NCBI RefSeq assembly: GCF_006494775.1
Contig: NZ_CP041146.1
Location: 3,224,001 to 3,288,000, forward strand
Origin: Nocardioides humi
Lineage (GTDB): Bacteria; Actinomycetota; Actinomycetes; Propionibacteriales; Nocardioidaceae
Reading direction: 5' to 3'
DNA length: 64,000 nucleotides
Below are positions 5,459 through 23,085 of the stretch, piece by piece. The first letter of the stretch is position 1; every line of letters starts with the position of its first letter. The notes below the pieces were generated by a model, which did not search any database, was not told the origin of the DNA, and saw only the letters and a program-made list of their open reading frames with translations. A program made the position numbers and the translations under genes.

Positions 5459-5543
5459 GGGAGCTCCTGGGAGAGAGAAGGGAGAGTGGCTCCAGCCTCC
5501 CGACGCCGAGGGGCGAGGTCAGGGGTGGAGCGTCCCGTCCGGG

Positions 5544-5561
5544 AGTGGTGCCTGCACCACT
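5544..5561. promoter_or_regulatory. 18-base palindrome in the MMPL / kinase divergent promoter region
   Basis: AGTGGTGC-CT-GCACCACT has perfect 8-base arms around two bases. It lies 86 bases upstream of the MMPL start and 34 bases upstream of the kinase start. This is the natural place for the response regulator encoded at 6743-7384 to bind and control both directions. Binding is inferred. Confidence 0.45.
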
Positions 5562-5594
5562 GCCCGTCCGGCCCGCGTCGGGGAGACTGGTGCG

Positions 5595-6779: not shown

Positions 6780-7384
6780 GAGCCGGGCTGACCCAGCTGC
6801 TCGAGGCCAAGGGCTTCGAGGTGGTCGCCGCGGTCGACAACCTCACCGAGCTGGAGCGGGCGCTCGACGACCCGAGCGCGGAGGCGGCCGTGGTCGACGT
6901 ACGGATGCCGCCGACCTTCACCGACGAGGGCCTGCGCGCCGCGATCGCCGCCCGCGAGCGCCGGCCGGGCTTCCCGGTCCTGGTGCTCTCGCAGTACGTC
7001 GAGCAGCTCTACGCCCGCGAGCTCCTGGCGAGCGGCGAGGGCGCGGTCGGCTACCTCCTCAAGGACCGGGTCTCCGACGTCGCCGAGTTCGTCGACGCCC
7101 TGCGCCGGGTCGCCGACGGCGGCACCGTCCTCGACCCCTCGGTCGTCGCCGCCGTCCTCGACCGCCGCAAGGACACCCCGGTCGACCGGCTCACCGAGCG
7201 GGAGCGCGAGGTGCTCGCCCTGATGGCCGAGGGCCGCGCCAACGCCGGCATCGCCCAGGCGCTGGTCGTCACCGAGAAGGCCGTCGCCAAGCACATCAAC
7301 AGCATCTTCGCGAAGCTCGACCTGCCCGCCGACACCGACGACCACCGCCGGGTGCGGGCGGTGCTGGAGTGGCTGCGGTTCTGA
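6743..7384 (+). CDS. NarL/LuxR-family response regulator
   Basis: 213 residues. The GTG start lies inside the 3' end of the kinase gene, so the two are translationally coupled. The receiver domain has the acidic pair in VLAEDHALLRAG, the phospho-accepting Asp in AVVDVRMPP (about residue 51) and the conserved Lys in YLLKDRV. The LuxR-type helix-turn-helix follows (LTEREREVLALMAEGRAN, then VTEKAVAKHINSIFAKL). It is expected to activate or repress the MMPL gene and perhaps its own operon through the palindrome at 5544-5561. The following 184 bases to 7568 separate convergent genes; I see no strong hairpin with a T-run there. Confidence 0.9.
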   Translation: MRIVLAEDHALLRAGLTQLLEAKGFEVVAAVDNLTELERALDDPSAEAAVVDVRMPPTFTDEGLRAAIAARERRPGFPVLVLSQYVEQLYARELLASGEGAVGYLLKDRVSDVAEFVDALRRVADGGTVLDPSVVAAVLDRRKDTPVDRLTEREREVLALMAEGRANAGIAQALVVTEKAVAKHINSIFAKLDLPADTDDHRRVRAVLEWLRF

Positions 7385-7568: not shown

Positions 7569-8519
7569 TCAACGCGAGCCCCGGGCTCCCGGCACGTCCT
7601 CCTCCGCGTCCAGCACCGCGCGGCGCATGAGCTGCTCGTCGCGCCAGGCGACCCGCGCCTCCCACTCCTCGAGCGGGACCAGCGCCCGGCGCTGCGCGGC
7701 GACGGTGGCGACGAGGTCGGGGGTCCACGGGTCGTGCTGGCCCCGCTCGCGCCCCATCCGCTCGTACGCCGGGCCCATCCGCTCCGCGTGCGCCGCGATG
7801 CCGCCGCGGGTGTTGAGGTCGACGGTCTCGAACGGCCCGACCACGCTCCACCGGCGGCCCAGGCCCAGGCGCACCACGGCGTCCAGGTCCGCCACGTCGA
7901 CGACGCCGTCGCGCACCAGGCAGTACGCCTCGCGCAGGACGGCGCCCTGGAGGCGGTTGAACACGAAGCCCTCGACCTCGCGGCGCAGGGCGATCGGCTG
8001 CAGCCCGGCCGCGGCGTACAGCTCGGTCGCACGGCGGGTGACCGCCGGCTTCGTCGCGACGCTCGGGACGACCTCGATCATCGGCAGCAGGTACGGCGGA
8101 TTGGCCGGGTGGGCGACGAGGACCCGGTGCTCCACGGTGCTGCCCTCGGCCAGCACGCCGGCGCGGAGGGCGGAGCTGGAGCTGGCCAGCGGGACGTCGT
8201 CCGCGGTGAGGTGGGCGAGGCGCCGGTAGAGGCCCTGCTTGACGTCGAGGCGCTCGGGCGCGCACTCCTGGACCAGCTCGACCTGCGCCACGGCGTCGTC
8301 GAGCTCGCCGACGAGCTCGACCCGGTCCGCGACCACGGCCGGCTCCTCCGCCAGCAGGCCGTGCCCGGCCAGCCGGTCCAGCCGGTCCCGGAGGTCGGCG
8401 CCCGCGCGGGTGCGGGCGTCCGGGTACGGGTCCCAGCAGCGGACGTCGTGTCCGGCGCGGGCGAACACGATCGCCATGGACACCCCGATCGAGCCGGCGC
8501 CCAGGACGCCGATCGTCAT
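7569..8519 (-). CDS. 3-hydroxyacyl-CoA dehydrogenase-family protein (lambda-crystallin / gulonate-dehydrogenase-like)
   Basis: 316 residues. The ATG at 8519 overlaps the stop of the iron alcohol dehydrogenase gene (ATGA), which favours it over a GTG six bases earlier. The N-terminal Rossmann motif is IGVLGAGSIGVSMA. The middle has the ASSSSALRAG loop, and VAHPANPPYLLPMIEVV has the catalytic His region of 3-hydroxyacyl-CoA dehydrogenases. The C-terminal domain carries EVEGFVFNRLQGAVLREA. The length fits the single-domain, non-CoA relatives (L-gulonate 3-dehydrogenase, carnitine dehydrogenase type) better than FadB. As the last gene of the six-gene operon it may oxidise a hydroxy-acid formed downstream of the monooxygenase route. 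Confidence 0.78.
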   Translation of the reverse strand: MTIGVLGAGSIGVSMAIVFARAGHDVRCWDPYPDARTRAGADLRDRLDRLAGHGLLAEEPAVVADRVELVGELDDAVAQVELVQECAPERLDVKQGLYRRLAHLTADDVPLASSSSALRAGVLAEGSTVEHRVLVAHPANPPYLLPMIEVVPSVATKPAVTRRATELYAAAGLQPIALRREVEGFVFNRLQGAVLREAYCLVRDGVVDVADLDAVVRLGLGRRWSVVGPFETVDLNTRGGIAAHAERMGPAYERMGRERGQHDPWTPDLVATVAAQRRALVPLEEWEARVAWRDEQLMRRAVLDAEEDVPGARGSR

Positions 8520-9757
8520 GACCACCAGCTCCGGTCGCCGGCGAGGCCGCGCTCGAGGATCCGGACGGCATCCTCCCGGTCGAGCTCCCGGGGGTTGTTG
8601 GCGGTGAGCCGGGTGGCCAGCAGGGCCTGGTCGGCGACCTGGTCGACGTGCTCGGGCCGCAGGCCGAGCGCCGCGAGGTCCGGCGGGCAGCCGATCGTGG
8701 CCAGCAGGTCCTCGACCGCGGTGATGCCGGCCCGCGCCGCGGCCTCGGCCGACCCGCCCCGCGGGACGACGCCGAGCAGCTCGGCGACCTCGGCGAATTC
8801 CTCGACCCGGGTCGGGAGGTTGAACCGCATCACGTACGGCAGGAGCGCGCCGACGCCGATGCCGTGCGCGGTGTGGGTCAGCGCGCCGATCGGGGACTGG
8901 AGCGCGTGCGCGGCGGCGGTCCCGGCGGTGTTGATCGCCATGCCCGCGGAGAAGGCGGCGAGCATGGTGTCGGAGCGGGCGCCCAGGTCGGCCGGGTCCG
9001 CGGCCAGCCGCGGGAACGCGTCGCGAACCAGGCGCAGGCCCTGCCGGGCCCAGGTGTCGGTGAGGAGGTTCTTGCCGACGTAGAGGTGCGCCTCGATCTC
9101 CGCGGGGCCGGGGTTCTTGGCGCGAGCGGTGAACGCCTCGACCAGGTGGGTGAGGGCGTCGGCCGCCGTCGCGGTCGTGAGCCCCGGCGGGCAGCTCAGC
9201 GTGAGCTCGGGGTCGACGACCGTCGCCACCGCCTCCAGCCAGGGACTGGCGATCCCCACCTTCATGCCGCGGGCGTCGTCGTACACCACCGAGATGCAGG
9301 TGGCCTCGGCGCCGGTGCCGCCGGTGGTCGGCACCGTCACCAGCGGCAGCCCGGGGCCGGGGACGACGTTCTCGCCGTACAGGGCGGCCACGTCGCCACC
9401 GCGGGCGAGGAGCACCGCGGCGACCTTCGCGAAGTCCAGCACGCTGCCGCCGCCGATCGCGACCACGACGTCGAACTCGGCGGCGTCGTGCGTGCGGGCG
9501 ACCGCCTCGAGGTCCTGGCGCGGGAGGTCCGGCTGGACCCGGCTGTAGGTGGTGACCTTCGTGCCCGCCTCCTCGACCTCGGCGACGAGCTCGCGGTAGA
9601 TCGGGTCGCCGGCCATCCGCTCGTCGGTGCAGAACAGCGCGCGGCCGCCCCAGGCGGGCAGCATCCGGGCGAGCTGGTGCCGCTGCCCGGGACCGAAGAG
9701 CACCGTGCCGGGCTGCCGGAGCAGCCCGAGGCGCAGGTCGTTGGCTGTCCGGGTCAT
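8516..9757 (-). CDS. Iron-containing (group III) alcohol dehydrogenase
   Basis: 413 residues with ATG and stop both overlapping the neighbouring genes by four bases. The NAD-binding half has VAIGGGSVLDFAKVAA and VPTTGGTGAE. The metal-binding half supplies Asp and His in ADALTHLVEAF and further His residues in ALQSPIGALTHTAHGIGVG. Together these give the usual Asp/His3 iron site. In this operon its likely job is oxidation of the primary hydroxyl group of a hydroxy-acid released by ester or lactone hydrolysis, giving the aldehyde for the enzyme encoded just upstream. In classical cyclohexanol degradation this step is done by a zinc enzyme, so an iron enzyme would be a substitution. That role is an inference. 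Confidence 0.85.
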   Translation of the reverse strand: MTRTANDLRLGLLRQPGTVLFGPGQRHQLARMLPAWGGRALFCTDERMAGDPIYRELVAEVEEAGTKVTTYSRVQPDLPRQDLEAVARTHDAAEFDVVVAIGGGSVLDFAKVAAVLLARGGDVAALYGENVVPGPGLPLVTVPTTGGTGAEATCISVVYDDARGMKVGIASPWLEAVATVVDPELTLSCPPGLTTATAADALTHLVEAFTARAKNPGPAEIEAHLYVGKNLLTDTWARQGLRLVRDAFPRLAADPADLGARSDTMLAAFSAGMAINTAGTAAAHALQSPIGALTHTAHGIGVGALLPYVMRFNLPTRVEEFAEVAELLGVVPRGGSAEAAARAGITAVEDLLATIGCPPDLAALGLRPEHVDQVADQALLATRLTANNPRELDREDAVRILERGLAGDRSWWS

Positions 9758-11250
9758 CGCAGGCCCGCCTTCGCCTCGTCCACCGTGATCGCGAGGTACT
9801 TGGGCTCCAGGAACTCGTGGATGCCGTCCGGACCTCCCTCCCGGCCCAGGCCGGAGGCCTTGATGCCGCCGAAGGACGCGACCGGGTCGGCCATGATCCC
9901 GCGGTTGATCCCGACCATGCCGAACTCCAGGCGCTCCGCGACGGCCACCGCGCGGTCCAGGTCGCGGGTGAAGACGTACGCCGCGAGTCCGTAGCTGGTG
10001 TCGTTGGCGAAGTCCAGCGCCTCCTGCACGTCGCCCACGCGGTAGAGCGCGGCGAGCGGCGCGAACAGCTCCTCGGTGCACAGCTCGTGGTCGCGGCTGT
10101 CGAGGGTCATCACGGTCGGCTCGTAGAAGTAGCCGTCCCCCGCGGCCGGCCGTCCGCCGGTGAGTACGTGCGCTCCGATGCCGCGGAACCGCTCGACCAG
10201 GTCGACCACCCGGTCGCGTTGCCGGCTGCTGATGATCGGGCCGACGTCGACGCCGTCCTCGAAGCCGTTGCCGACCCGCAGCTCCCGGGCGGCCGCGACG
10301 AACTTCGCGGTGAACTCGTCGGCGATCGCCTCGTGCAGGATGATCCGGTTCGCCGCGACGCAGGCCTGGCCCGCGTTGCGGAACTTGCAGATCACCGCCT
10401 GCTCGACCGCGAGGTCGACGTCGGCGTCGTCGAGCACCACGAACGGGCCGTCGCCGCCGAGCTCCATCGACGCGTTGACGATGTGGGGAGCGGCCTTCTG
10501 CAGCAGCAGGCTCCCGACGCCGGTGGAGCCGGTGAAGCTGATCTTCCGCAGTCGCGGGTCGGCGAGCGCGGTCTCCGAGATCGTCGCCGAGCTCGTGGTG
10601 TGCAGCAGGTTGACCACGCCGGCCGGGAAGCCGGCGTCCGCGAGGGTCTGGGTGAACAGCGCGCCGGTGAGCGGCGTCTCCTGCGCGGTCTTCATCACCA
10701 CCGTGCAGCCGGCGGCCAGGGCCGCGCCGGCCTTGCGGGCCGACATGAGCAGTGGGAAGTTCCACGGCGTGATCAGCAGGCACGGCCCGACCGGCTGGTG
10801 GGTCGTGACGACCCGGTAGCCCCCGTGCGACCCGTGCGCCCAGCCGCCGTGCAGGTGGGTGATCTGCTCGGCGTACCAGAGGAAGAAGCTGGCGGACAGG
10901 TCGAACTCCGCGCGCGACTCGCTCAGCGGCTTGCCGCTCTCCGCCGTCATCACCCGCGAGAACTGCTCGGCGCGCTCCCGCAGCAGGCCGTGCGCCCGGT
11001 GGAAGAGGTCGGCCCGGGCGCGCGGCGCCCAGCGGCCCCAGGCGTCCTGGGCCGCGACGGCGGCGTCGAGGGCGGCCCGGGTCTCGGCGGCCCCGGCGTC
11101 GGCCATCCGGGCGACGGCGTGCCCGGTCGCGGGGTCGATCACCTCGAAGGACGGGCCGGGGTCGGTCCAGACGCCGTCGATGTAGAGGCTCGTGCGGACG
11201 CCACCGGCCGCCGTCGATCCGGTCGGGGCGACGGTCTCAGCTGTGGTCAT
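9754..11250 (-). CDS. NAD(P)-dependent aldehyde dehydrogenase (succinate-semialdehyde dehydrogenase-like)
   Basis: 498 residues, normal for the superfamily, with AGGAAGG upstream of the ATG. Visible motifs are the oxyanion-hole Asn in ITPWNFPL, cofactor motif SFTGSTGVG, general-base Glu in MELGGDGPFVV, and the nucleophilic Cys in FRNAGQACVAANR. The C-terminal half has EELFAPLAALYRV and SFGGIKASGLGREGG, the latter typical of the GabD/succinate-semialdehyde group. In this operon it probably oxidises an omega-oxo-acid to a dicarboxylate, or a simple aldehyde to an acid. Asp instead of Asn or Ala in ELGGDGP is a small deviation from most family members. Confidence 0.88.
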   Translation of the reverse strand: MTTAETVAPTGSTAAGGVRTSLYIDGVWTDPGPSFEVIDPATGHAVARMADAGAAETRAALDAAVAAQDAWGRWAPRARADLFHRAHGLLRERAEQFSRVMTAESGKPLSESRAEFDLSASFFLWYAEQITHLHGGWAHGSHGGYRVVTTHQPVGPCLLITPWNFPLLMSARKAGAALAAGCTVVMKTAQETPLTGALFTQTLADAGFPAGVVNLLHTTSSATISETALADPRLRKISFTGSTGVGSLLLQKAAPHIVNASMELGGDGPFVVLDDADVDLAVEQAVICKFRNAGQACVAANRIILHEAIADEFTAKFVAAARELRVGNGFEDGVDVGPIISSRQRDRVVDLVERFRGIGAHVLTGGRPAAGDGYFYEPTVMTLDSRDHELCTEELFAPLAALYRVGDVQEALDFANDTSYGLAAYVFTRDLDRAVAVAERLEFGMVGINRGIMADPVASFGGIKASGLGREGGPDGIHEFLEPKYLAITVDEAKAGLR

Positions 11251-11305
11251 GGAGGTTCCTTCCTGGTGCGGGAGGTCCCGCGGGGTGCGATGGGGTGGGG
11301 GCGGT

Positions 11306-12121
11306 TCAGCGGGCGGTGTAGCCGCCGTCGATGGGCAGCGCGACGCCGGTGACCCAGGACGCCTCGTCGGAGGCGAGGTAGAGGACGCCGTACGCGACCT
11401 CCTCGGGACGGCCCAGCCGGCGCAGCGACTGATGGGTCGTGTTGACCTCCTCGTAGGCCGCGATCCCGCCCGGGAACTCGGCGGCGATGCCCTCGACCAG
11501 CGGCGTCAGCACGGTGCTGGGGTGCACGCTGTTCACCCGGATGCCGTGCCTGCCGTACGTCGCGGCGTCCTGCCGGGTCTGCATCGTCACCGCGCCCTTG
11601 GCGACGTGGTACGCCGAGAACTCGTCGTTGCCGCGCAGTCCGTAGATCGAGGAGAAGTTGACGATGCTGCCGCCGCCCTGCTCGATCATGTAGGGCACGG
11701 CGTGCTTGGTCCCCCACAGCACGCCCTTGACGTCGATCGCGAAGAGCGCGTCCCACTCCGCCTCGGTCACCTCGTGCGTCGGCTTGTCCGGACCGATCAC
11801 GCCCGCGCAGTTCACGAGGATGTCGATCCGGCCGTGCTCGGCGACGACCTCGGCCCAGACCCGGGCGACGGCGGCCTCGTCGCTGACGTCGAGCGGCCGG
11901 AACGCGGCCCGGCCACCGGCGTCCCGGATCGCCCGGGCCGCGGCCGCGCCCTCGGTCGTGTCGATGTCGGTCAGCGTCACCGCGGCGCCCTCCCGGGCGA
12001 GCAGCTCGGCGGTGGCGCGGCCCATGCCCATCGCGGCGCCGGTGACCACGGCGACCTTGCCGGCCACGCGCCCGGACCGCTCCGGTGCGCGGGCCCGCTC
12101 GCCGGCGACAGCAGCGCTCAC
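11306..12121 (-). CDS. Short-chain dehydrogenase/reductase, cyclic-alcohol dehydrogenase-like
   Basis: 271 residues from a GTG that overlaps the stop of the monooxygenase gene (GTGA). The first about 20 residues are an unconserved extension before the Rossmann motif TGAAMGMGRATA. LVNCAGV, the catalytic Ser in IVNFSSIYG and Tyr/Lys in SAYHVAKGAV are all present, and the end (LPIDGGYTAR) is normal. Coupling to a Baeyer-Villiger monooxygenase suggests it oxidises a secondary (possibly cyclic) alcohol to the ketone substrate of that enzyme, as cyclohexanol or cyclopentanol dehydrogenases do. A similar SDR sits in the divergent transporter operon at 16211. Confidence 0.85.
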   Translation of the reverse strand: MSAAVAGERARAPERSGRVAGKVAVVTGAAMGMGRATAELLAREGAAVTLTDIDTTEGAAAARAIRDAGGRAAFRPLDVSDEAAVARVWAEVVAEHGRIDILVNCAGVIGPDKPTHEVTEAEWDALFAIDVKGVLWGTKHAVPYMIEQGGGSIVNFSSIYGLRGNDEFSAYHVAKGAVTMQTRQDAATYGRHGIRVNSVHPSTVLTPLVEGIAAEFPGGIAAYEEVNTTHQSLRRLGRPEEVAYGVLYLASDEASWVTGVALPIDGGYTAR

Positions 12122-13770
12122 GCGGGCACCACCGCGGTGTCGTCGGCGGCCACCCGGTCGTTGAGGAAGGACGCGTAGCCCTCGGCCTCCACCTGGCGGC
12201 AGTACTCCTGGTAGACCTGCCCGCCGCCCATGTAGACCTGGAACGCACGACCCTTGCCGGGCACGTTGTGGCCGAGGAACCAGGCGCCGGCCTTCTCGCC
12301 CTCCGAGCACATCACCGTCGCCTCGCCGGCCCGGTTGGTCTCGTCGAGCCACCACTGCTCCGAGGCCGCGGTCGCCTCGATCCGAGGGACGTCGTTCTCC
12401 CGGGCCCAGACCAGCAGGCGCTGCAGCCACTGGGCGCCGAGCTGGATCGGCACCGGCAGGTTCGAGTACGGCGTCTGCGGGCCGAGCGACATGAAGAAGT
12501 TCGGGAACCCGTGGACCGAGATCCCGAGGTTGCTGCGCAGGCCCTCCCGCTCCCACTTCTCCCGCAGGACCAGGCCGTCGCGGCCGACGATGTCGATCGT
12601 CGTCAGCGTGCCGGTCATCGCGTCGAAGCCGGTGGCGAAGACGATGACGTCGAGGTCGTACTCGGTCCCACCCACCCGGATGCCCCGCTCGGTGATCTCC
12701 GAGATGGGGGTCGACTTCACGTCGACGAGGTGGACGTTGGCGCGGTTGAACGTGTCGTAGTAGTGGTGCCCGGTCGGGACGCGCTTGCCGTTGAACGAGT
12801 AGTCCTTCGGGCAGAGCAGCTCCGCGGTGGCGGGGTCCTCGACGATCTCGCGGATCTTGGAGCGGATGAACTCCGAGGCCAGCTCGCTGGACTCGTGGTT
12901 GGTCGCGAGGTCGTTGAAGCACTCGTTGGCGAAGTGGAAGCCGCCCTCCTGCCACTTGCTCTCGAACACCGCGCGCCGCTCCTCCGGCGACGCCTCGAGC
13001 GCGCTCTTCTCGGCGTACTCCATCGCGACGCCGAAGGGATGGGCGGCGGCCTGCTCGAAGATCTCGTCGTAGTGGTCGCGCACGTACTGCATCCACTCCG
13101 CGCCGACCTTCTCGTTGTTGGTCTCCACCACGTAGTTGGGCGTGCGCTGGAAGACGTAGAACTCCTCGGCCTGCTCGGCGATGACCGGCACCGCCTGGAT
13201 GCCGGAGGCGCCCAGGCCGATGATGCCGACCCGCTTGCCCCGCAGGTCCACGCCCTCCCGCGGCCAGGCCGCCGTGTGGTAGGTCGTGCCCGCGAAGCCG
13301 TCGATGCCCGGGATGTCCGGGAGGATCGGCTGGGAGAGGACGCCCATCCCGCTGACGAGGTAGCGCGCGGTCTGCCGGCTGCCGTCCTCGAAGTCGACGA
13401 CCCACCGGTTGCCCGCCTCGTCGTACGCCGCTCGGCTGACCCGCATGCCCAGCTCGATGTCCTTGCGCAGGTCGAGCCGGTCGGCGATGAAGTTCAGGTA
13501 GGCCAGCACCTCCTTGCCGCTGGGGTAGCGCTCGGTCCAGGTCCACTCCTCGCGCACCTCCTTGGAGAAGGAGAAGGAGTAGTAGTGGAACTCGCTGTCC
13601 GTGCGCACGCCCGGGTAGTTGTTGATCCACCAGGTGCCGCCGATGCCGTCGGTCGCGTCCACGACGTGGGTCGAGAGACCGGCTTCGCGCAGGTGGTGGA
13701 GCAGGGCCAGGCCGGAGAAGCCGGCGCCGATGACGAGGGCGTCGTGGTCGACGGGGAGGTCGGTGCTCAT
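12118..13770 (-). CDS. Type I Baeyer-Villiger monooxygenase (cyclohexanone monooxygenase-like)
   Basis: 550 residues, close to cyclohexanone monooxygenase in length and layout. The N-terminal FAD motif is VIGAGFSGLALL, followed by IGGTWWINNYPGVRTDSE. The Baeyer-Villiger fingerprint FxGxxxHxxxWP is present in FAGTTYHTAAWP at about residue 165. The NADPH motif is GIIGLGASGIQ, ATGFD is in the second half (FATGFDAMTG), and the C-terminal PNFFMSLGPQTPYSN and GHNVPGKG stretches match cyclic-ketone enzymes. It should convert a ketone to an ester or lactone with O2 and NADPH. The stop overlaps the SDR start, and an esterase gene lies 59 bases upstream. I recognise the family securely but not the exact ketone. 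Confidence 0.9.
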   Translation of the reverse strand: MSTDLPVDHDALVIGAGFSGLALLHHLREAGLSTHVVDATDGIGGTWWINNYPGVRTDSEFHYYSFSFSKEVREEWTWTERYPSGKEVLAYLNFIADRLDLRKDIELGMRVSRAAYDEAGNRWVVDFEDGSRQTARYLVSGMGVLSQPILPDIPGIDGFAGTTYHTAAWPREGVDLRGKRVGIIGLGASGIQAVPVIAEQAEEFYVFQRTPNYVVETNNEKVGAEWMQYVRDHYDEIFEQAAAHPFGVAMEYAEKSALEASPEERRAVFESKWQEGGFHFANECFNDLATNHESSELASEFIRSKIREIVEDPATAELLCPKDYSFNGKRVPTGHHYYDTFNRANVHLVDVKSTPISEITERGIRVGGTEYDLDVIVFATGFDAMTGTLTTIDIVGRDGLVLREKWEREGLRSNLGISVHGFPNFFMSLGPQTPYSNLPVPIQLGAQWLQRLLVWARENDVPRIEATAASEQWWLDETNRAGEATVMCSEGEKAGAWFLGHNVPGKGRAFQVYMGGGQVYQEYCRQVEAEGYASFLNDRVAADDTAVVPA

Positions 13771-13829
13771 GGGTGGTGTCCTCTTCTGGTTCGGGGTGGC
13801 TCGGGGTGGCTCGGGTGGTTCGGTCGGGG

Positions 13830-14741
13830 TCAGCGGGAGAGGCCGGCGCGGTACCAGTCGGCGATGGCGGCGATCTCCTGGTCGGCGCGCTCGGTCCGCC
13901 CGGCGAGGAAGGGGTAGACGTGCTGCTGGCCCTGCCCGACGGAGAAGGTCACGTCGACGTCGTGCTTCTGCGCGAGCTCGTGCAGCCGGACGCTGTCGTC
14001 GAAGAGCGACTCGACCGAGCCGGCGCAGATGTAGAGCCGCGGGAAGCCGGTCAGGTCCGCGTACAGCGGGTTGGCGAACGGCTCGGTCGGGTCGCAGGCG
14101 CCGCCGATGTACCGGTCGATATTGGCCTGGAGACCCTCCCGCGTGATGAGGAAGTCGGTGGCGTCGTTGCTGTCCAGGGTGGCGCCGGTGTTCTCCATGT
14201 TCAGCCACGGAGACATGGTGATCACCTGGCGCGGCAGGGGGTCCTCGGAGGCGAGGAGCCGCAGGGTCGTCGCGATCGCCAGGTTGCCGCCGGCGGAGTC
14301 GCCGACCAGGGTGGTGCGGGCGGGGTCGCGGCCCTCCGCCCGCCACGCGGCCAGGACGGCGAGGGCGTCCTCGATCGCGGCGGGGTAGGGGTGCTCGGGC
14401 GCCAGGCGGAAGTCGGCGACGAAGACCGGGGCGGCGCACGCCCGGGCGAGGTGCCCGCCGAGCTTGCGGTGCGAGGCGGACGATCCCAGCGCGAACCCGC
14501 CGCCGTGGAGCAGCAGCACCACCTCGTCGCCGTCCGCGCCGAGCGGCTCGGCCCACACCCCGGGCACTCCGGCGACGTCGGCGTGACGGTAGGTCACCCC
14601 GGCGGGCTCGGCGGTCGCCCGCTGCCAGTCGTCGAACATGATCCGCAGCAGCTGCAGCGACATGTCGGGATGGGCCTGCATCTCCACGGCCCACTGGGCG
14701 TAGATCTCGCCGAGGAGGTCCTGCGGCACCGGTTGCGTCAT
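13830..14741 (-). CDS. Alpha/beta hydrolase of the hormone-sensitive-lipase type (ester or lactone hydrolase)
   Basis: 303 residues; the ATG at 14741 has AGGAGA upstream and is preferred over earlier in-frame starts that fall in the regulatory region. The oxyanion motif is LLHGGGFALGS, the nucleophile elbow is GDSAGGN (Ser), and the C-terminal GQGQQHVYPF supplies the His; Asp/Glu lies near AGSVESLFDD. This is family IV (HSL-like). As the first gene of the operon beside a Baeyer-Villiger monooxygenase, it would open the lactone or ester product to a hydroxy-acid or alcohol plus acid. This matches the role of ChnC in cyclohexanone degradation and of AcmB-type esterases in ketone degradation. 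Confidence 0.87.
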   Translation of the reverse strand: MTQPVPQDLLGEIYAQWAVEMQAHPDMSLQLLRIMFDDWQRATAEPAGVTYRHADVAGVPGVWAEPLGADGDEVVLLLHGGGFALGSSASHRKLGGHLARACAAPVFVADFRLAPEHPYPAAIEDALAVLAAWRAEGRDPARTTLVGDSAGGNLAIATTLRLLASEDPLPRQVITMSPWLNMENTGATLDSNDATDFLITREGLQANIDRYIGGACDPTEPFANPLYADLTGFPRLYICAGSVESLFDDSVRLHELAQKHDVDVTFSVGQGQQHVYPFLAGRTERADQEIAAIADWYRAGLSR

Positions 14742-14861: not shown

Positions 14862-14880
14862 CTGTCGCAGATTGCGACAG
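14862..14880. promoter_or_regulatory. Palindrome CTGTCGCA-N3-TGCGACAG in the divergent catabolic/transport promoter
   Basis: Perfect 8-base arms around GAT lie 121 bases upstream of the hydrolase start and 107 bases upstream of the binding-protein start. A second, imperfect copy of the half-site (GTCGCA, then TGACGC) follows at about 14884-14898. This spaced repeat is what an enhancer-type regulator would bind; the AcoR-like protein encoded at 20470-22239 is the best local candidate. Inferred, no binding data. Confidence 0.5.
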
Positions 14881-14940
14881 TCCCGTCGCAGAGTGACGCA
14901 GCTCACCACCCCGGGAGGTCGAAGACTCGCCGTCCAAGGA

Positions 14941-14986: not shown

Positions 14987-16129
14987 ATGCAGGTGAGCAA
15001 GAAGGGAGTCGTCGCGCTGGTTGCGGCGACGGCACTGGCGAGCGCGGTCAGCGCGTGCTCGACGGGCGCCCCGTCCGGCGACGGCGGCGCGAAGGACACG
15101 GTCGAGGGCCAGCAGGTCGGCGTCGTCGGGACCCAGGACCAGATCGAGGACATCGACCGGTTCTGCGGTGACGACGAGATCACCGTCGCGCTCGCCGACG
15201 GCTTCGGCGGCAACTCGTGGCGCAAGATCACCCGCGCCGTGTTCGAGGCCGAGGCGGCCCGGTGCGACAACATCACCAAGGTCCTCTACACCGACGCGCA
15301 GGGCGACACGCAGAAGGCGATCGCCGACATCAACTCGCTCGTCGCGCAGGGCGTGGACGTCATCGTCACCTTCGTCGACGGTGGTGAGGCACTGCTGCCG
15401 ACCATCAAGAAGGCGACCGCGGCCGGCGTGAAGGTCGTGCCGTTCGTCGGGTCGCCGGGCGGGGAGCCGGGCAAGGACTACGTCGACTTCGTCTCCGAGG
15501 ACATCACGACCTACGGCGAGAACCTCGCCCGCTGGACCATCGAGAAGATGGGCGGCAAGGGCAACCTCGTCATGCTCGGCGGCCTGCCGGGCAACTCCTA
15601 CTCCCAGGGCGTGTACGACGGCGTGGTGAAGGCCGCGCAGGAGAGCCCGGGCGTCACGCTGCTCAACACCGACGGTCCCGTCAGCACCGACTGGGAGCCG
15701 GGCAAGACCCAGCAGGTGGTGGCCGGCCTGCTGACCAAGTACGACGCGATCGACGGCATCGTCGCCGACTACGGCGGCGGCTCCGTGGGCGGCATCCGCG
15801 CCTTCCTGGCCGCGGGCCAGCCGCTCCCGGTGTGGTCGGCCAACGACTCCAACGAGTTCGCGTGCCTGTGGTACGAGCACGCCGAGAAGAACCCGACCTT
15901 CCAGGTGGCGACGGAGTCGTCGCGCAACTGGGTGGTCAAGGTCGCGCTCCACAAGGGCCTGGCGGCCCACAACGGCATCCGCAACGACGAGCCGTCGACG
16001 TACAACCTCGACATCATCGAGGACTCGACGGATGCCGCGAAGGCGCCGAAGTGCGAGGAGTCGCTGCCGCCCGACGCGATCCTCTCCTCCGGCCTCACCG
16101 TCGAGGAGCTCCAGGCGCTCTTCGACTGA
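14987..16129 (+). CDS. Sugar-type (CUT2) ABC transporter substrate-binding lipoprotein
   Basis: 380 residues. A positively charged start and hydrophobic helix end in a lipobox (AVSAC, acylated Cys24). The mature part has the periplasmic-binding-protein type 1 fold of the ribose/xylose group (ITVALADGFGGNSWRK, then DINSLVAQGVDVIVTF, TAAGVKVVPF and VMLGGLPGNSYSQG). The protein would be tethered outside the membrane and deliver ligand to the permeases encoded downstream. CUT2 systems mostly import pentoses, inositol or related polyols. The divergent ketone-degrading operon suggests the ligand here could be a cyclic polyol or alcohol, which is an inference from context only. Confidence 0.87.
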   Translation: MQVSKKGVVALVAATALASAVSACSTGAPSGDGGAKDTVEGQQVGVVGTQDQIEDIDRFCGDDEITVALADGFGGNSWRKITRAVFEAEAARCDNITKVLYTDAQGDTQKAIADINSLVAQGVDVIVTFVDGGEALLPTIKKATAAGVKVVPFVGSPGGEPGKDYVDFVSEDITTYGENLARWTIEKMGGKGNLVMLGGLPGNSYSQGVYDGVVKAAQESPGVTLLNTDGPVSTDWEPGKTQQVVAGLLTKYDAIDGIVADYGGGSVGGIRAFLAAGQPLPVWSANDSNEFACLWYEHAEKNPTFQVATESSRNWVVKVALHKGLAAHNGIRNDEPSTYNLDIIEDSTDAAKAPKCEESLPPDAILSSGLTVEELQALFD

Positions 16130-16210
16130 CCCCGACCCCTCCCGTTCCACCGTCGGCCCGGTCGGAGACCCGGCCGGGCCGACGGGTCCCGCACCCCAAG
16201 GAGCAACCCC

Positions 16211-16939
16211 ATGTCCCGACTCACCGGCAAGGTCGCCATCGTCACCGGCGCCGGACGCGGCATCGGCCAGTCCATCGCCGAGGTGTTCGCCCGCGAGGGC
16301 GCCACCGTGATCGCCACCAGCCGCGGCAGCGACGTCGACTACCTCGACGGCCGCCCCGGCCTGGAGTACCAGCAGCTCGACGTCTCCAGCGACGACGACT
16401 GGCAGCGCGTCGTCGGCGACGTCGTGGCGCGCCACGGGCGCGTCGACGTCCTGGTCAACAACGCGGGCATCATCACCTACGAGCCGGTCCACGAGCTCAG
16501 CGTCGAGGACTGGCAGCGGGTCGTCGCGATCAACCAGACCGGCACCTGGCTCGGCATGCGCGCCGTCGTGCCCGCCATGCTCGCCCAGGGCGCCGGATCC
16601 ATCGTCAACGTGTCCTCGATCTGGGGCTCCGCCGCGGTCGCGGGCGGGCACGCTTACCACGCCACGAAGGGCGCGGTGCGCAATATGTCGAAGAACGCCG
16701 CGATCACCTACGCCCGGGACGGCATCCGGGTGAACTCGCTGCATCCCGGCTTCATCAGCACACCGCTCACCGACGCCCAAGCGCCCGACGTCAACGAGTA
16801 CGTCGTCGGCCAGACGCCGATGGGACGGGCCGGCAAGCCCGAGGAGATCGCCCAGGGCGCGGTCTTCCTCGCCAGTGACGACTCCGGCTTCATGACGGGC
16901 GCGGAGCTCGTCATCGACGGCGGGTACCTGGCGCAGTGA
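16211..16939 (+). CDS. Short-chain dehydrogenase/reductase (cyclopentanol-dehydrogenase-like)
   Basis: 242 residues with AAGGAG upstream of the ATG. Cofactor motif TGAGRGIGQ, LVNNAGI, IVNVSSIWG with the catalytic Ser, and HAYHATKGAV with Tyr/Lys are all present; it ends in LVIDGGYLAQ as classical SDRs do. It is similar in layout to the SDR of the divergent operon. Position between the binding protein and the transporter ATPase, with a GTGA overlap to the latter, indicates that the imported compound is its substrate. A typical reaction would be secondary alcohol to ketone with NAD+. Enzymes inside CUT2 operons commonly act first on the imported molecule. Confidence 0.85.
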   Translation: MSRLTGKVAIVTGAGRGIGQSIAEVFAREGATVIATSRGSDVDYLDGRPGLEYQQLDVSSDDDWQRVVGDVVARHGRVDVLVNNAGIITYEPVHELSVEDWQRVVAINQTGTWLGMRAVVPAMLAQGAGSIVNVSSIWGSAAVAGGHAYHATKGAVRNMSKNAAITYARDGIRVNSLHPGFISTPLTDAQAPDVNEYVVGQTPMGRAGKPEEIAQGAVFLASDDSGFMTGAELVIDGGYLAQ

Positions 16940-19458
16940 GCGTGACGCACACGGACGCGGCGGCCGCCGCGGGGGTGAGCACCACCGCCGGGCACGCCCT
17001 GGAGCTGCGCGGCATCGGCCGGCGCTTCGGTGCCGTGCAGGCGCTCGCGGACGTCGACCTGGTCGTCGAGCGCGGCGAGGTGCATGCCCTCGTGGGCGAG
17101 AACGGCGCCGGGAAGTCGACGCTCATGGCCATCGCCTCCGGCGCGCTGGCCGCGGACGAGGGCGAGGTGGTCATCGTCGGCGAGACGCTGGCCCACGCCT
17201 CGCCCGAGCGGGCGCGCGCCCTGGGGCTGGCCATCGTCCGCCAGCACCCCGCCCTCCTGCCCGATCTCACCGTCGCCGAGAACATGGCCGTCGGCGTCGG
17301 CTTCGCCCCCGCGGGCGGCGTCCGCGGATCCGTGGCCTGGACCCGGGAGCAGCTGGCCCCCTGGGGGATGGACATCGACCCGCGCGCCCGGGTGGGCGAC
17401 CTGCCGATCGAGCAGTGGTTCGTCATCGAGATCGCCAAGGCGCTCGCGCTGCGGCCCCGGGTGCTGGTGCTCGACGAGCCGACCGAGCACCTCAGCCTGG
17501 AGGAGGTGCGGCTGCTCTTCCGCCGGCTGCGCGAGATCGTCGCGGACGGCACGGCCGTCGTCTACATCTCCCACCGCATCCCGGAGGTGAAGGAGGTCGC
17601 GGACCGGATCACCGTGCTGCGCGACGGGCGCACCCGCGGCGTGCACGCCGCCGCCGAGGTCTCGGAGGACCAGGTCGTCGAGCTCGTCGTCGGCCGGGCC
17701 CTGGACGCGGTCTTCCCACCGAAGGGATCGGTCGCCGGATCCGTCGGCACCCACGAGCAGCTCGTCGTGGAAGGCCTCTCGGGCGAGGGCTTCCACGACG
17801 TCGCCTTCACGGTCCGGGCGGGGGAGGTCGTGGGCCTCGCCGGCGTGCAGGGCAACGGGCAGACCGAGCTGCTGCACGCCCTCGCCGGCCTGGAGCCCAG
17901 CAGGGGCGACGTGCTCGTCGACGGCCGGCGGCTCGCCCGCGGCAGCACGGCGTACGCCCGACGGGCCGGTGTCGTCCACGTCCCCGCGGACCGTCACGAG
18001 GACGGCGTCTTCCTGCCGCTGTCGGTCGCCGAGAACATCGCGGCCGCCACGCTCGACGAGGTCAGCACCGCCGGACTGGTGCGCACCCGCGCGGTCGCCG
18101 CGCGCGCCGAGGAGCAGCGCGCCGAGCTCGGCATCAAGACGCCCTCGGTGGACACGCCGGTCGCCGCGCTCTCGGGCGGCAACCAGCAGAAGGTGGTGAT
18201 GGCGCGCACGGTGCTCGCCCACCCCGGCGTGCTGCTCGCCGAGGAGCCCACGCAGGGCGTGGACGCCGGCGCCCGGGTCGACATCTACCGGATCATCCGC
18301 TCGGTCGCGGACGGCGGCGCGGCCGTCGTCCTCCTCTCCTCCGACGGCGTCGAGCTGGAGGGACTGTGCGACCGGGTGCTGATCGTCTCGCGCGGCACGG
18401 TCGTCAAGGAGCTCGCCGGCGACGAGGTCACGGAGGAGGCGATCGCGCACGCCGCGCTCACCGCCACCACCGTCCGCGAGCGCGGGACGGAGGAGGCCCC
18501 GCGTCGTCGCGGCCTGCGCCGGCTGCTCGCCGGCGACCACGCCCCGGCGGCGGTCCTGGTCGGCGTGATGGCGCTGCTGGGCCTGGTGGTCGGCGCGCAG
18601 AACCCGTCGTACTTCTCCTCCTTCAACATCTACAACCTGCTGTTCATGGCGGCCCCGCTGGTGCTGGTCGGCGCGGCGCAGCACCTCGTCGTCCTCACCG
18701 GCGGCATCGACCTGTCCGTGGGACCGCTGATGGGCCTGCTCGTGGTGGTCGGCTCGTTCTGGTTCGTCGACGGCGGCAGCCCGGCCGTCGGCCTGCTGCT
18801 CATGGCGCTGACCGCGCTCGCCGTGGGCCTGGTCAACGGCGTCCTGGTCGCCGTGGTCGGCGTCGACGCGGTGGTCGCGACCCTCGCCGTCTTCATGGCG
18901 CTGCAGGGCATCTCCCTGACCCTGCGGGAGGTGCCGGCCGGCGTCGTCGCGGAGTCGGTCTCGACCCAGGTCATGGCCCGGGTCGGGCCCCTGCCGGTGG
19001 CGATCATCGCCGCCGCCGCGGTCGCCGTCGTGCTGGAGGTCGCGCTGCGTCGTACCCGATGGGGCGTGGCGCTGCGGGCGACCGGCTCCCGCCGGGACGC
19101 CGCGGAGAAGATCGGCGTCCGTACGACGCGTGCGCAGCTCGGCGCCTACCTCCTGGCGGGCGCGCTCACCTGCGGCGCCGCGGTGCTGCTGATGGCGCAG
19201 ATCGGCATCGGCGACGGGCGTCCCGGCGTCGGCTACACGCTCTCGTCGATCACCGTCGTCGTCCTCGCCGGCGCCAGCGTCTTCGGCGGCCGCGGCTCGT
19301 TCCTCGGTGTGCTGGTCGCCGGCCTGCTGGTGCAGCAGCTGCTGTCGGCCTCGCCGTTCCTCCAGCTCCCCCAGGCCTGGAGCTACCTGCTCCCCGGCCT
19401 GGTCATCCTCGTGGCGGCCGTGCTCTTCGGCCGCCTCCAGCGCACCCGGAAGGCCTGA
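16936..19458 (+). CDS. CUT2 ABC transporter ATPase-permease fusion (RbsA-RbsC type)
   Basis: 840 residues in one unbroken frame, starting with GTG overlapping the SDR stop. Residues 20-245 are the first ATPase domain (Walker A GENGAGKST, Walker B RVLVLDEPTE, an altered signature LPIEQWFVIEIAKAL). Residues 265-500 are the second (degenerate P-loop GVQGNGQTE, signature LSGGNQQKVVMA, LLAEEPTQGVDAG). From about 530 a full permease follows, with eight or more hydrophobic segments and the GGIDLSVGPLMG motif of RbsC. RbsA and RbsC are normally separate proteins of about 500 and 320 residues; here they are joined. It energises and forms half of the import channel. Confidence 0.9.
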   Translation: MSVTHTDAAAAAGVSTTAGHALELRGIGRRFGAVQALADVDLVVERGEVHALVGENGAGKSTLMAIASGALAADEGEVVIVGETLAHASPERARALGLAIVRQHPALLPDLTVAENMAVGVGFAPAGGVRGSVAWTREQLAPWGMDIDPRARVGDLPIEQWFVIEIAKALALRPRVLVLDEPTEHLSLEEVRLLFRRLREIVADGTAVVYISHRIPEVKEVADRITVLRDGRTRGVHAAAEVSEDQVVELVVGRALDAVFPPKGSVAGSVGTHEQLVVEGLSGEGFHDVAFTVRAGEVVGLAGVQGNGQTELLHALAGLEPSRGDVLVDGRRLARGSTAYARRAGVVHVPADRHEDGVFLPLSVAENIAAATLDEVSTAGLVRTRAVAARAEEQRAELGIKTPSVDTPVAALSGGNQQKVVMARTVLAHPGVLLAEEPTQGVDAGARVDIYRIIRSVADGGAAVVLLSSDGVELEGLCDRVLIVSRGTVVKELAGDEVTEEAIAHAALTATTVRERGTEEAPRRRGLRRLLAGDHAPAAVLVGVMALLGLVVGAQNPSYFSSFNIYNLLFMAAPLVLVGAAQHLVVLTGGIDLSVGPLMGLLVVVGSFWFVDGGSPAVGLLLMALTALAVGLVNGVLVAVVGVDAVVATLAVFMALQGISLTLREVPAGVVAESVSTQVMARVGPLPVAIIAAAAVAVVLEVALRRTRWGVALRATGSRRDAAEKIGVRTTRAQLGAYLLAGALTCGAAVLLMAQIGIGDGRPGVGYTLSSITVVVLAGASVFGGRGSFLGVLVAGLLVQQLLSASPFLQLPQAWSYLLPGLVILVAAVLFGRLQRTRKA

Positions 19459-19460
19459 GC

Positions 19461-20488
19461 ATGGACACGACCACCGCCACCACCACCCTGGTGCGCCGGC
19501 TGCTGACGGCGGGACCGGCCACGATCGTCGTCGCCACCGTGCTGCTGTTCGCGGCCTCGCCCTGGTGGCGCCCGGCAGCCTGGGCAGGGCGCCGTTGCTG
19601 AGCATGCTGCCGTTCGCGGCGGTCCTGGCCATCGCCGCCGCCGGCCAGACCCTCGTCGTGCAGCAGCGCGGCCTCGACCTGTCGGTGCCCGGCATGCTCG
19701 CCCTCGGCGCCGTGCTCTGCACCGCCCTTCCCCAGCAGCACGGCTGGCCGCTGGTCGTCGCCGTGGCGGCCGGCGTGCTCGGCCCGGCGCTCGCGGGCGT
19801 CGTGACCGGGGTGCTGGTCACCCGGTTCGGCGTCATCCCGCTGATCGCGACCCTCGGCATGAACGCCGTGCTGCTCGGGCTGGTGTTCGCCGTGGCGGAC
19901 GGCACCCCGGCCGGCGCCGCCCGGGCGCTCAACCAGTTCGCGCTGGACCGCACCCTCGGCGTCCCTCACACGGTCGTCGTCGCCGTGGTTGTCGTCGGGA
20001 TCGCCGGCCTGGCCGTCGGCCGGGCGACGAGCGGGCGGCGGCTGACCGCGGTCGGGGTCAGCCCGCGCGCCGCCGAGGTCGTCGGGATCCGGGTGGAGCG
20101 CTACCAGGTCCTCGCGTACGCCGCCGCCGGAGCCTGCTACGGCATCGCCGGCGTGCTGCTCGCGGGCTACACGAAGACGCCGCCGCTGTTCCTGGGCGAC
20201 TCCTACCTGCTGCCGACCGTGGCCGCCGTCGTCCTCGGCGGGACCGCCCTGAGCGGTGGCGTGGCGAGCGTCGTGGCGTCCGGGGTCGCCGCGCTCTTCC
20301 TCACCCAGCTCGGCCAGCTGCTGCGGGCGCTCGGCTGGTCGGACTCGCGGCAGCTGATCGCCCAGGCCGCGGTGCTGGTCCTGGTCGTGCTCGGCCGCGT
20401 GCTGGTCCCGTGGCTGGTCGCCGCGGCCCGCCGGCGTGCGGCGGAGACGGCCGCCGGCGTCCGGGCGGCTCAGCCGATCAGCCGGTAG
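19461..20488 (+). pseudogene. Second CUT2 ABC transporter permease, broken by a 1-base deletion
   Basis: An ATG two bases after the fusion gene opens a frame with a first membrane helix (TIVVATVLLFAAS) that is lost after SPWWRP. The next frame continues as SLGRAPLLSMLPFAAVLAI and then a complete permease with GLDLSVPGMLALG, the RbsC-type signature. One extra G in the CCCGG at 19571-19575 joins both parts into a 342-residue protein of usual length. Without correction translation would need to restart at the ATG at 19604, losing the first helix. Its 3' end overlaps the convergent AcoR-like gene by 19 bases. With the fused permease it would make a heterodimeric channel. Confidence 0.82.
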
Positions 20489-22239: not shown

Positions 22240-22333
22240 GACAGCCTCCTCCTCGCCGTGTCCAGGCCGTCGGTCCCCCGGCTCGAGCGGGTGACCACGC
22301 CCGAGATGGACAGCCGTGACATCGGTCACCATA

Positions 22334-22354
22334 ATCGTCATACCGTCATACGAT
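22334..22354. promoter_or_regulatory. GTCATAC direct repeat inside an ATCGT/ACGAT inverted repeat between AcoR-like and GntR genes
   Basis: Two GTCATAC heptamers (22337-22343 and 22345-22351) are one base apart and flanked by ATCGT and ACGAT. The site is 39 bases upstream of the GntR start and is AT-rich against its surroundings. Auto-regulation by the GntR protein is the likeliest use; control of the AcoR-like gene on the other side is also possible. Confidence 0.45.
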
Positions 22355-22392: not shown

Positions 22393-23085
22393 ATGATCAC
22401 GGTTCCGGCCGCGCCGGTACGTCAGGAGGTCGTCCGCGCGCTGCGCAACGACATCCTCCAGCTCGAGCTCGCGCCGGGGCAGCGGCTCGTGGAGCCGATG
22501 CTCTGCGAGCGCTACGGCGTGTCCCGCACCGTCGTGCGCGAGGCCCTGCGGCAGCTGGAGTCCGAGGGCCTGATCACGCTGCTGCCCAACCGCGGCGCGA
22601 TCGTCACCGTGCTCACGCGCTGCGACATCATCGCGATGTACGAGGTGCGGGCCTGCCTCGAGGGGCTGATGGGCGAGCGCTTCGCCGTCCGTGCGAGCGC
22701 CGAGGAGGCGACCGGGCTGATCGAGCACCTGACGCGGATGGAGCGCGACTTCGTCCCCGGCGACCTCGCCACCCGGGCCGCCCTCAAGAACGAGTTCTAC
22801 GAGCGGATGCTCACCGGTGCCGCCAACGACGTGCTGCGCGAGAGCATCGAGCGGATCCACCTGCGGATCGGGATGTTCCGTCACTTCGCCTTCACCGACG
22901 ACGAGCGCGTCCGGCTCTCGCTCGAGGAGCTGGTGCGGATCGTCGACGCCGCCGCCCGCCGCCGCGACCCGGTCGCGGCCCGCGAGGCCTGCGCCGCCCA
23001 CATCACCCGCGCCGGCGAGCTGGCCGTGGCCGAGTACGAAGCGCGGACGCCGGTCGCGACGGCGCACCGGTCGTCGGCGCGCTGA
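22393..23085 (+). CDS. GntR-family transcriptional regulator (FadR/FCD subgroup)
   Basis: 230 residues; ATG preceded by AGGGAGCAGG. The winged helix-turn-helix fills residues 1-75 (LRNDILQLELAPGQRLVEP, YGVSRTVVREALRQLESEGL). The all-helical FCD ligand domain (about 90-215) follows with Asp/His positions that could bind a metal (RHFAFTDDE, CAAHITRAGEL). FCD regulators respond to organic acids, often intermediates of the pathway they repress. Divergent from the AcoR-like gene and near the transporter, it may repress the catabolic operon until an acid intermediate appears. The target is unproven. Confidence 0.88.
   Translation: MITVPAAPVRQEVVRALRNDILQLELAPGQRLVEPMLCERYGVSRTVVREALRQLESEGLITLLPNRGAIVTVLTRCDIIAMYEVRACLEGLMGERFAVRASAEEATGLIEHLTRMERDFVPGDLATRAALKNEFYERMLTGAANDVLRESIERIHLRIGMFRHFAFTDDERVRLSLEELVRIVDAAARRRDPVAAREACAAHITRAGELAVAEYEARTPVATAHRSSAR

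Follow-up and report, generated by a model that had tools for sequence, protein, structure and literature searches.

Which compound is broken down by the six minus-strand genes that occupy positions 7569-14741 of a 64,000-nucleotide stretch of the Nocardioides humi genome (hereafter the window), and is their pathway one that is already known? An original prediction had described the genes as a near-complete operon for ketone breakdown, built around a Baeyer-Villiger monooxygenase (BVMO) and carrying an iron-type alcohol dehydrogenase, and had suggested that the substrate may lie outside the known cyclohexanol set. Our analysis supports that suggestion, as well as the presence of an iron-type enzyme in a Baeyer-Villiger catabolic operon. 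Judged from its sequence, the locus is a conserved catabolic system, a variant of the Baeyer-Villiger ketone pathway that is undescribed as far as our searches reach. That it serves Baeyer-Villiger catabolism is very probable, and a cycloalkanediol such as 1,4-cyclohexanediol, as a candidate substrate, would account for every one of its enzymes.

The coordinates of the six genes, which are of the enzyme kinds expected, needed no change, and family scans with Pfam and NCBIfam concur with all six assignments. The extent of the system had however been drawn too narrowly: divergent genes at 14987-20488 and a regulator gene at 20470-22341 are part of the same conserved system, so that an importer, a second short-chain dehydrogenase (SDR), the regulator and a palindrome, all missed before, have to be added. 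The features are as follows, with the lengths of proteins in amino acids (aa).

13830..14741, minus strand: HSL-type alpha/beta hydrolase, 303 aa, GDSAG serine motif (Abhydrolase_3, E 1.6e-48); proposed lactone/ester hydrolase
12118..13770, minus strand: type I BVMO, 550 aa, fingerprint FAGTTYHTAAWP; matches to phenylacetone (PAMO), steroid (STMO) and cyclohexanone (CHMO) monooxygenases
11306..12121, minus strand: SDR 1, proposed secondary alcohol dehydrogenase (adh_short_C2, E 8.6e-64)
9754..11250, minus strand: aldehyde dehydrogenase (ALDH), 498 aa, resembling succinate-semialdehyde dehydrogenases (SSADHs), which are its best PDB matches
8516..9757, minus strand: iron-type (group III) alcohol dehydrogenase (Fe-ADH), 413 aa (Fe-ADH, E 1.1e-39; ADH_Fe_C, E 5.4e-41)
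7569..8519 (alternative start 8525), minus strand: lambda-crystallin-like 3-hydroxyacid dehydrogenase, 316 aa (NF004783, 412 bits, cutoff 347)
14863..14879: perfect palindrome TGTCGCA-GAT-TGCGACA between the divergent arms; proposed operator
14987..16129, plus strand: CUT2-type solute-binding protein (Peripla_BP_4, E 2e-36), with a lipobox-like AVSAC read by eye
16211..16939, plus strand: SDR 2, from family scans; present in more loci than SDR 1
16936..19458, plus strand: ABC ATPase and permease in a single protein, 840 aa (ABC_tran in two stretches, BPD_transp_2)
19461..20488, plus strand: second permease, in two frames in this genome and in a single frame in related loci L001 and L003
20470..22341, minus strand: AcoR/DhaR-like protein, proposed regulator, with a degenerate AAA part and a Fis-type helix-turn-helix (HTH_8, E 2e-15)
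22393..23085, plus strand: GntR-family regulator adjoining the AcoR/DhaR-like gene (gene cluster C07, in 22 of the 60 related loci described below)

The description of the six-gene arm as mostly overlapping proved slightly generous. At most three of its five junctions overlap, by four bases each (ALDH/Fe-ADH, Fe-ADH/lambda-crystallin-like and BVMO/SDR 1, the last only if SDR 1, whose start is uncertain, begins at GTG 12121 rather than at the alternative GTG 12067), and two have gaps, of 59 bases between the HSL and BVMO genes and of 55 bases between those of SDR 1 and the ALDH. A simple promoter and terminator scan gave no match.

A BVMO scan of 84,980 species genomes gave 114 confirmed stretches, of which the best 80 were kept (79 loci). 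BVMO orthologues were present at 60 of the 79 loci, with identities of 61-94% (94% in the nearest relatives), while the next best match fell to 44%, and the clade that unites the window with 56 of these loci had support of 100/99; the tree was built without L012, L015, L043 and L057, which were covered to less than 80% or had a stop or letters that were not read. At presence thresholds that we set ourselves, and with many loci truncated, either where a contig ends or at the 10-kb flank, the partner genes were found among the 60 loci as follows: HSL hydrolase in 52, SDR 2 in 48, the regulator in 44, SDR 1 in 41, the binding protein in 38, the ATPase-permease fusion in 34, the ALDH in 31, the Fe-ADH in 20 and the lambda-crystallin-like enzyme in 17, with regulator, SDR 2 and HSL hydrolase occurring jointly in 42. 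The low counts of the last two stem largely from the flank limit. The genomes behind 28 loci whose fetched stretch lacked the end genes were searched: an Fe-ADH orthologue was found in 27 (52-64% identity, two partial), and in 25 of these the contig coordinates place it at most about 3 kb from the fetched stretch; a lambda-crystallin orthologue was found in all 28 (56-75% identity). In five genomes with a lone BVMO, by contrast, there was no lambda-crystallin orthologue (0/5) and one Fe-ADH (1/5, 50% identity). The lambda-crystallin-like dehydrogenase had thus been rightly reported, but it is no stray extra to the operon.

Six loci had no partner at these thresholds, namely the Cellulosimicrobium-kind loci L046 and L048-L051 and the short contig L053, which nevertheless carries a member of the regulator family. 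Sampled evenly over the class, 394 genomes yielded a single orthologue at E <= 1e-190, in the window's own genome. The cluster is therefore rare and patchy, yet well conserved where present, and record titles place it in soil, plant-associated and freshwater Actinobacteria. Since the same neighbourhood recurs across families of Actinobacteria, a chance grouping is excluded.

On the reading that we prefer, the divergent CUT2-type ABC system would import a small cyclic alcohol or ketone, an SDR would oxidise the imported compound to a cyclic ketone, and the BVMO would convert this ketone to a lactone, which the HSL hydrolase would open to an omega-hydroxy acid. The Fe-ADH would then produce the omega-semialdehyde and the SSADH-like ALDH the dicarboxylic acid, which is expected to carry a 3-hydroxyl that the lambda-crystallin-type dehydrogenase would oxidise to give a 3-oxo acid. 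The simplest substrate fit would be 1,4- or 1,3-cyclohexanediol, passing via 4-hydroxycyclohexanone, or via 3-hydroxycyclohexanone, which can yield the same products, to 3-hydroxyadipate and on to 3-oxoadipate; a CoA-transferase and a thiolase of PcaIJ/PcaF type would convert the latter into succinyl-CoA and acetyl-CoA. The AcoR/DhaR-like regulator would activate expression by acting at the palindrome that separates the two arms. The parts of this proposal differ in strength. We think it reasonably probable that the substrate is cyclic and not linear. The version with a hydroxylated ring and a 3-oxo dicarboxylate is possible but somewhat doubtful. More tentative again is the complete account, that of an undescribed actinobacterial pathway for a hydroxylated cycloalkane, in which a non-sugar CUT2 importer is combined with a Baeyer-Villiger opening that is joined to the 3-oxoadipate pathway via a dehydrogenase of the lambda-crystallin type that takes 3-hydroxydicarboxylates as free acids.

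The BVMO fingerprint of the form FxGxxxHxxxWP, already noted in the original prediction, was confirmed as FAGTTYHTAAWP at residues 159-170; 59 of the 60 orthologues cover it, and G, H, W and P are kept in all 59 and F in 58, with Y in the one other. The fingerprint sits between two GxGxxG motifs, read as GAGFSG and GLGASG, and the active-site pair is formed by R330 (60/60 orthologues) and D58 (59/59 of those covering it), which we take to be the counterparts of the PAMO active-site residues R337 and D66. By fingerprint, Rossmann motifs and Asp/Arg pair, the enzyme is classed as a type I Baeyer-Villiger monooxygenase. Calling it cyclohexanone-monooxygenase-like had set it too close to that group, as PAMO (491-501 bits) and STMO (466-469 bits) score higher in the PDB than cyclohexanone monooxygenases (408-445 bits). 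A two-residue insertion in PAMO limits the use of cyclohexanones by that enzyme; the alignment with 1w4x shows the insertion to be absent from the BVMO of the window. The relatives listed, the best 120 of 7596, bear automatic names only, such as 'flavin-containing monooxygenase', 'steroid monooxygenase' and, once, 'cyclohexanone 1,2-monooxygenase'. In the Cellulosimicrobium-kind loci L046 and L048-L051, the BVMO (64-65% identity) stands without partner genes in the fetched stretch and perhaps has a different role in spite of belonging to the same clade. One BVMO from a record named Sphaerisporangium cinnabarinum groups inside Cellulosimicrobium, and that genome is possibly mislabelled.

The HSL hydrolase keeps its nucleophile S149 in 52/52 orthologues and scores 212 bits against the GESAG-HSL model, under the cutoff of 430. 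In SSADH/GabD, two arginines and one serine hold the distal carboxylate; in the ALDH family of the cluster, residues R172 and R291 and the catalytic C297 are present in 22/22 orthologues, and both arginines align with GabD R165 and R283 in all 22. A control alignment of six E. coli ALDHs had both arginines in GabD only, one in AldA and Sad, and none in PuuC, BetB and FeaB. Because both GabD-aligned arginines are kept throughout the family, and among the controls occur together in GabD alone, the ALDH probably acts on an aldehyde with a distal carboxylate. Such an aldehyde likely fits a semialdehyde derived from a ring, with lactone opening releasing a primary alcohol. In the Fe-ADH, with residue roles as in FucO, the metal ligands D200, H204, H284 and H298 are found in 20/20 orthologues, and the position of an extra histidine, FucO H266, is Ser in 20/20.

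The product of the last gene belongs to the 3-hydroxyacyl-CoA-dehydrogenase family, has lambda-crystallin as its best PDB match and passes the curated model NF004783. Because this 3-hydroxyacid dehydrogenase is so constant, the dicarboxylate should bear a 3-hydroxyl, and a ring with an extra hydroxyl is proposed. Near 8/60 loci, one or both subunits of a 3-oxoacid CoA-transferase could be recognised together with a thiolase resembling PcaF, and five more loci have a thiolase of a different type nearby. At L012, a single direction holds the ALDH, Fe-ADH, lambda-crystallin enzyme, CoA-transferase A and B, thiolase and BVMO, with the CoA-transferase directly behind the lambda-crystallin gene. The CoA-transferase subunits of the eight loci are 62-81% identical to the PcaIJ-like pair of the window genome, whereas the figures for its two other 3-oxoacid pairs are 44-53%. 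The thiolases of these loci are 57-78% identical to its PcaF-like copy, as against 38-41% for the single further copy that was compared; the five thiolases from mycobacterial and related loci reach 37-41% to either copy. The genome's own PcaIJF-like module lies at 1.71 Mb and, as read by eye, adjoins a LysR-like gene; the Streptomyces loci L015 and L058 have the same arrangement close to the cluster. Since no scanned thiolase reached a 3-oxoadipyl-CoA cutoff, 3-oxoadipate is a best guess. Two further gene families adjoin the cluster in places: C24 (L012, L036, L037 and L047), whose L012 member is an old-yellow-enzyme-type flavin oxidoreductase and may hint at unsaturated ketones as further substrates, and C28, HyuA hydantoinase/acetone carboxylase-like by eye, near the cluster in Leucobacter L032, L034 and L037.

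The importer, which diverges from the six-gene arm, has the domain make-up of CUT2, the family of ribose and xylose importers. D89, R90 and R141 are sugar-contact residues of RbsB. On an alignment of 21-22% identity with a gap nearby, the corresponding positions are V or I, then G, A or S, and V in 39/39 binding proteins, while XylF retains D and R at the positions of D89 and R90; W, N and D are fixed at the positions aligned with RbsB 164, 214 and 215. Because these RbsB positions are lost in all 39, the ligand would seem not to be an ordinary sugar, and a less polar one fits, although this is suggestive only. The split of the second permease reflects either a sequencing error or the recent loss of one permease in the strain. 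Two other CUT2-type importers were seen in the same genome. One (L090 3466-9667, C1:2668000-2684000) has the same ATPase-permease fusion at 47% identity and a binding protein at 36%, and is divergent from a 3-oxoacid CoA-transferase gene; a one-mismatch palindrome separates the two, and SDR genes and one for a luciferase-like monooxygenase are close by. The other (L092, C1:2684001-2698000) is accompanied by an AcoR-like regulator paralogue, a one-mismatch palindrome upstream and genes that by eye resemble molybdenum hydroxylase.

The proposed regulator, which is of an AcoR-like kind, scores 103 bits against the DhaR model, under the cutoff of 551. The palindrome has a second, weaker match at 14884-14900. 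In relaxed form it stands upstream of the HSL gene, at a distance of no more than 300 bases, in 49/52 loci (all but L016, L037 and L054), where the reversed pattern was found 0 times, and over the whole set of 60 loci (1.16 Mb) it was counted 65 times against one for the reversed pattern; the relaxed pattern was drawn up from the very sites it counts, with its reversed form as the control. L012, in which an HSL gene was not detected, has a site immediately upstream of the BVMO gene. A site lies upstream of the regulator gene in only 4/42 loci, and the regulator therefore need not control itself. With at most one mismatch, the strict palindrome occurs at four places in the 6.22-Mb single-contig genome: in this cluster, upstream of a 3-oxoacid CoA-transferase gene (from which the L090 importer diverges), upstream of another CUT2-type importer, and inside an open reading frame. 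The AcoR/DhaR-like protein is predicted to bind the palindrome as its operator, and the motif may be common to several regulators of this type.

A number of observations weigh against a hydroxylated ring that ends in 3-oxoadipate. The CoA-transferase is near the cluster in only the 8/60 loci mentioned; the mycobacterial loci are not among them, and any thiolase nearby in these is of the other type. The PcaF-like thiolases score 406-479 bits, below the 597-605 of the curated 3-oxoadipyl-CoA thiolase cutoffs; for TIGR02430 (cutoff 597), five copies (L007, L012, L015, L058 and the window's own genome) gave 406-470 bits. Of the 28 lambda-crystallin matches, four have a stop codon within them or at their edge and two are partial. 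The ALDH stays under the cutoff of the SSADH model TIGR01780 (486.8 bits against 646.35), and the third GabD residue, S446, is Ala in 19/19 of the orthologues that cover it (of 22). The kinship of the BVMO to PAMO and STMO leaves room for aryl and linear ketones, and SDRs are too promiscuous for a substrate to be named from them. Finally, the comparison with RbsB is as distant as stated, and neither the mycobacterial loci nor the three pseudonocardial ones (L004, L054 and L055) show the importer in their fetched stretches.

We also weighed what else the cluster might degrade. A linear keto acid such as 5-oxohexanoate or one of its homologues, or else a linear hydroxyketone, would be turned by the BVMO into the acetate ester of an omega-hydroxy acid, from which the HSL hydrolase would free acetate, leaving the Fe-ADH and ALDH to form a dicarboxylate such as succinate. 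An SSADH-like ALDH with both carboxylate-contact arginines suits this route, acetyl esterases are among the relatives of the HSL hydrolase, and the Fe-ADH scores 156 bits with a model for 4-hydroxybutyrate dehydrogenase, the cutoff of which is 500. The constant 3-hydroxyacid dehydrogenase (28/28) and the PcaIJF-like genes would however be left without a clear role, and BVMOs are not known to act on short keto acids, which also counts against this unlikely alternative.

A linear methyl ketone or an aryl ketone, broken down as in the alkanone and phenylacetone routes from secondary alcohol to ketone, ester, and then primary alcohol and acid, with oxidation of the alcohol to follow, is an equally unlikely candidate. 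It would explain why the BVMO is nearest to phenylacetone and steroid monooxygenases, and the order of SDR, BVMO, esterase, alcohol dehydrogenase and ALDH fits it equally well; but the carboxylate-contact arginines would be unexpected in an ALDH for a simple aldehyde, this ALDH is closer to the SSADH than to the phenylacetaldehyde dehydrogenase models (486.8 against 346 bits), and the BVMO is without the PAMO insertion. No hydroxylase that would make the secondary alcohol was recognised among the neighbours examined, for which no systematic search was made.

A sugar-like cyclic polyol (a deoxy-inositol or an anhydro-sugar), taken up by the importer and oxidised as a polyhydroxy acid by the lambda-crystallin enzyme in an L-gulonate-3-dehydrogenase-like step, is improbable: the importer is of the ribose/xylose family and lambda-crystallin is the last enzyme's best solved relative, but the RbsB sugar contacts are replaced in 39/39 binding proteins, the fetched stretches of mycobacterial loci hold no importer, and the neighbouring CoA-transferase and thiolase indicate an unsubstituted 3-oxo acid. 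Two candidates were rejected, namely a cyclohexanone-specific pathway, given that the BVMO is nearer to PAMO and STMO and that an end at adipate would leave the lambda-crystallin-type enzyme idle, and rings substituted beside the ketone (menthone, carvone or camphor), whose lactones, as reasoned from their chemistry, open to secondary or tertiary alcohols with no path for a semialdehyde-type ALDH.

The operon is flanked, at window positions 3299-7384, by genes named by eye as an MmpL-type transporter (minus strand) and a histidine kinase/response regulator pair (plus strand). The MmpL gene was set aside as a part of the cluster, its high identity being kept only in the three nearest loci, L001-L003.

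If the hydroxylated-ring pathway is correct, a substrate class and a route would be assigned to a BVMO family known by automatic names only, Baeyer-Villiger ring opening would be joined to the 3-oxoadipate pathway, the bacterial lambda-crystallin-type dehydrogenase would gain a task on free acids, and a CUT2 importer would have been adapted to a non-sugar; the habitats of the cluster would in addition imply a natural substrate so far unrecognised. The binding protein and the palindrome put the question of the substrate within direct experimental reach.

How, then, does this system compare with known ones? No description of the cluster was found in the open-licence literature, although most subscription papers lay outside that scope and this is weak evidence of novelty; nor was an open-licence paper found that joins a BVMO to an iron-containing alcohol dehydrogenase gene cluster, or 4-hydroxycyclohexanone to a monooxygenase. 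The chn/cpn enzymes of cyclohexanol and cyclopentanol degradation are mentioned in PMC8203775 and PMC9477822. The chn/cpn clusters of Acinetobacter, Comamonas, Rhodococcus and Brevibacterium share a plan of SDR, BVMO, lactone hydrolase, alcohol dehydrogenase and ALDH, all of which are present in the window cluster. In the chn system, ChnD is a zinc-type alcohol dehydrogenase and the regulator is of AraC type, whereas the window cluster has an iron-type enzyme, an AcoR/DhaR-like regulator and a BVMO nearer to PAMO and STMO, and has in addition the 3-hydroxyacid dehydrogenase, another SDR and a CUT2 importer of its own. The cluster is thus chn-like in its upper half, yet should not be filed as a chn pathway. 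The secondary-alcohol/alkanone operon of Pseudomonas fluorescens DSM 50106 likewise brings together an alcohol dehydrogenase, a BVMO and an esterase, and is not known to contain a semialdehyde-type ALDH, lambda-crystallin enzyme or importer. The mymA operon of Mycobacterium tuberculosis likewise has a BVMO, the HSL-type LipR and an SDR side by side, but with a zinc alcohol dehydrogenase, an acyl-CoA synthetase and an AraC-type regulator, where the window cluster has the iron-type enzyme, an ALDH and the lambda-crystallin enzyme. With the 3-oxoadipate pathway (pcaIJF), the related loci share the PcaIJ-/PcaF-like CoA-transferase and thiolase near eight of the 60, but entry here would be through a 3-hydroxydicarboxylate and not through aromatic ring cleavage, and the thiolases are below the curated cutoff. 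Lastly, the importer has the common domains of CUT2 sugar importers such as rbs and xyl, with binding protein, double ATPase and permease, but differs from them in the fusion of ATPase and permease and in the loss of the sugar-contact residues.

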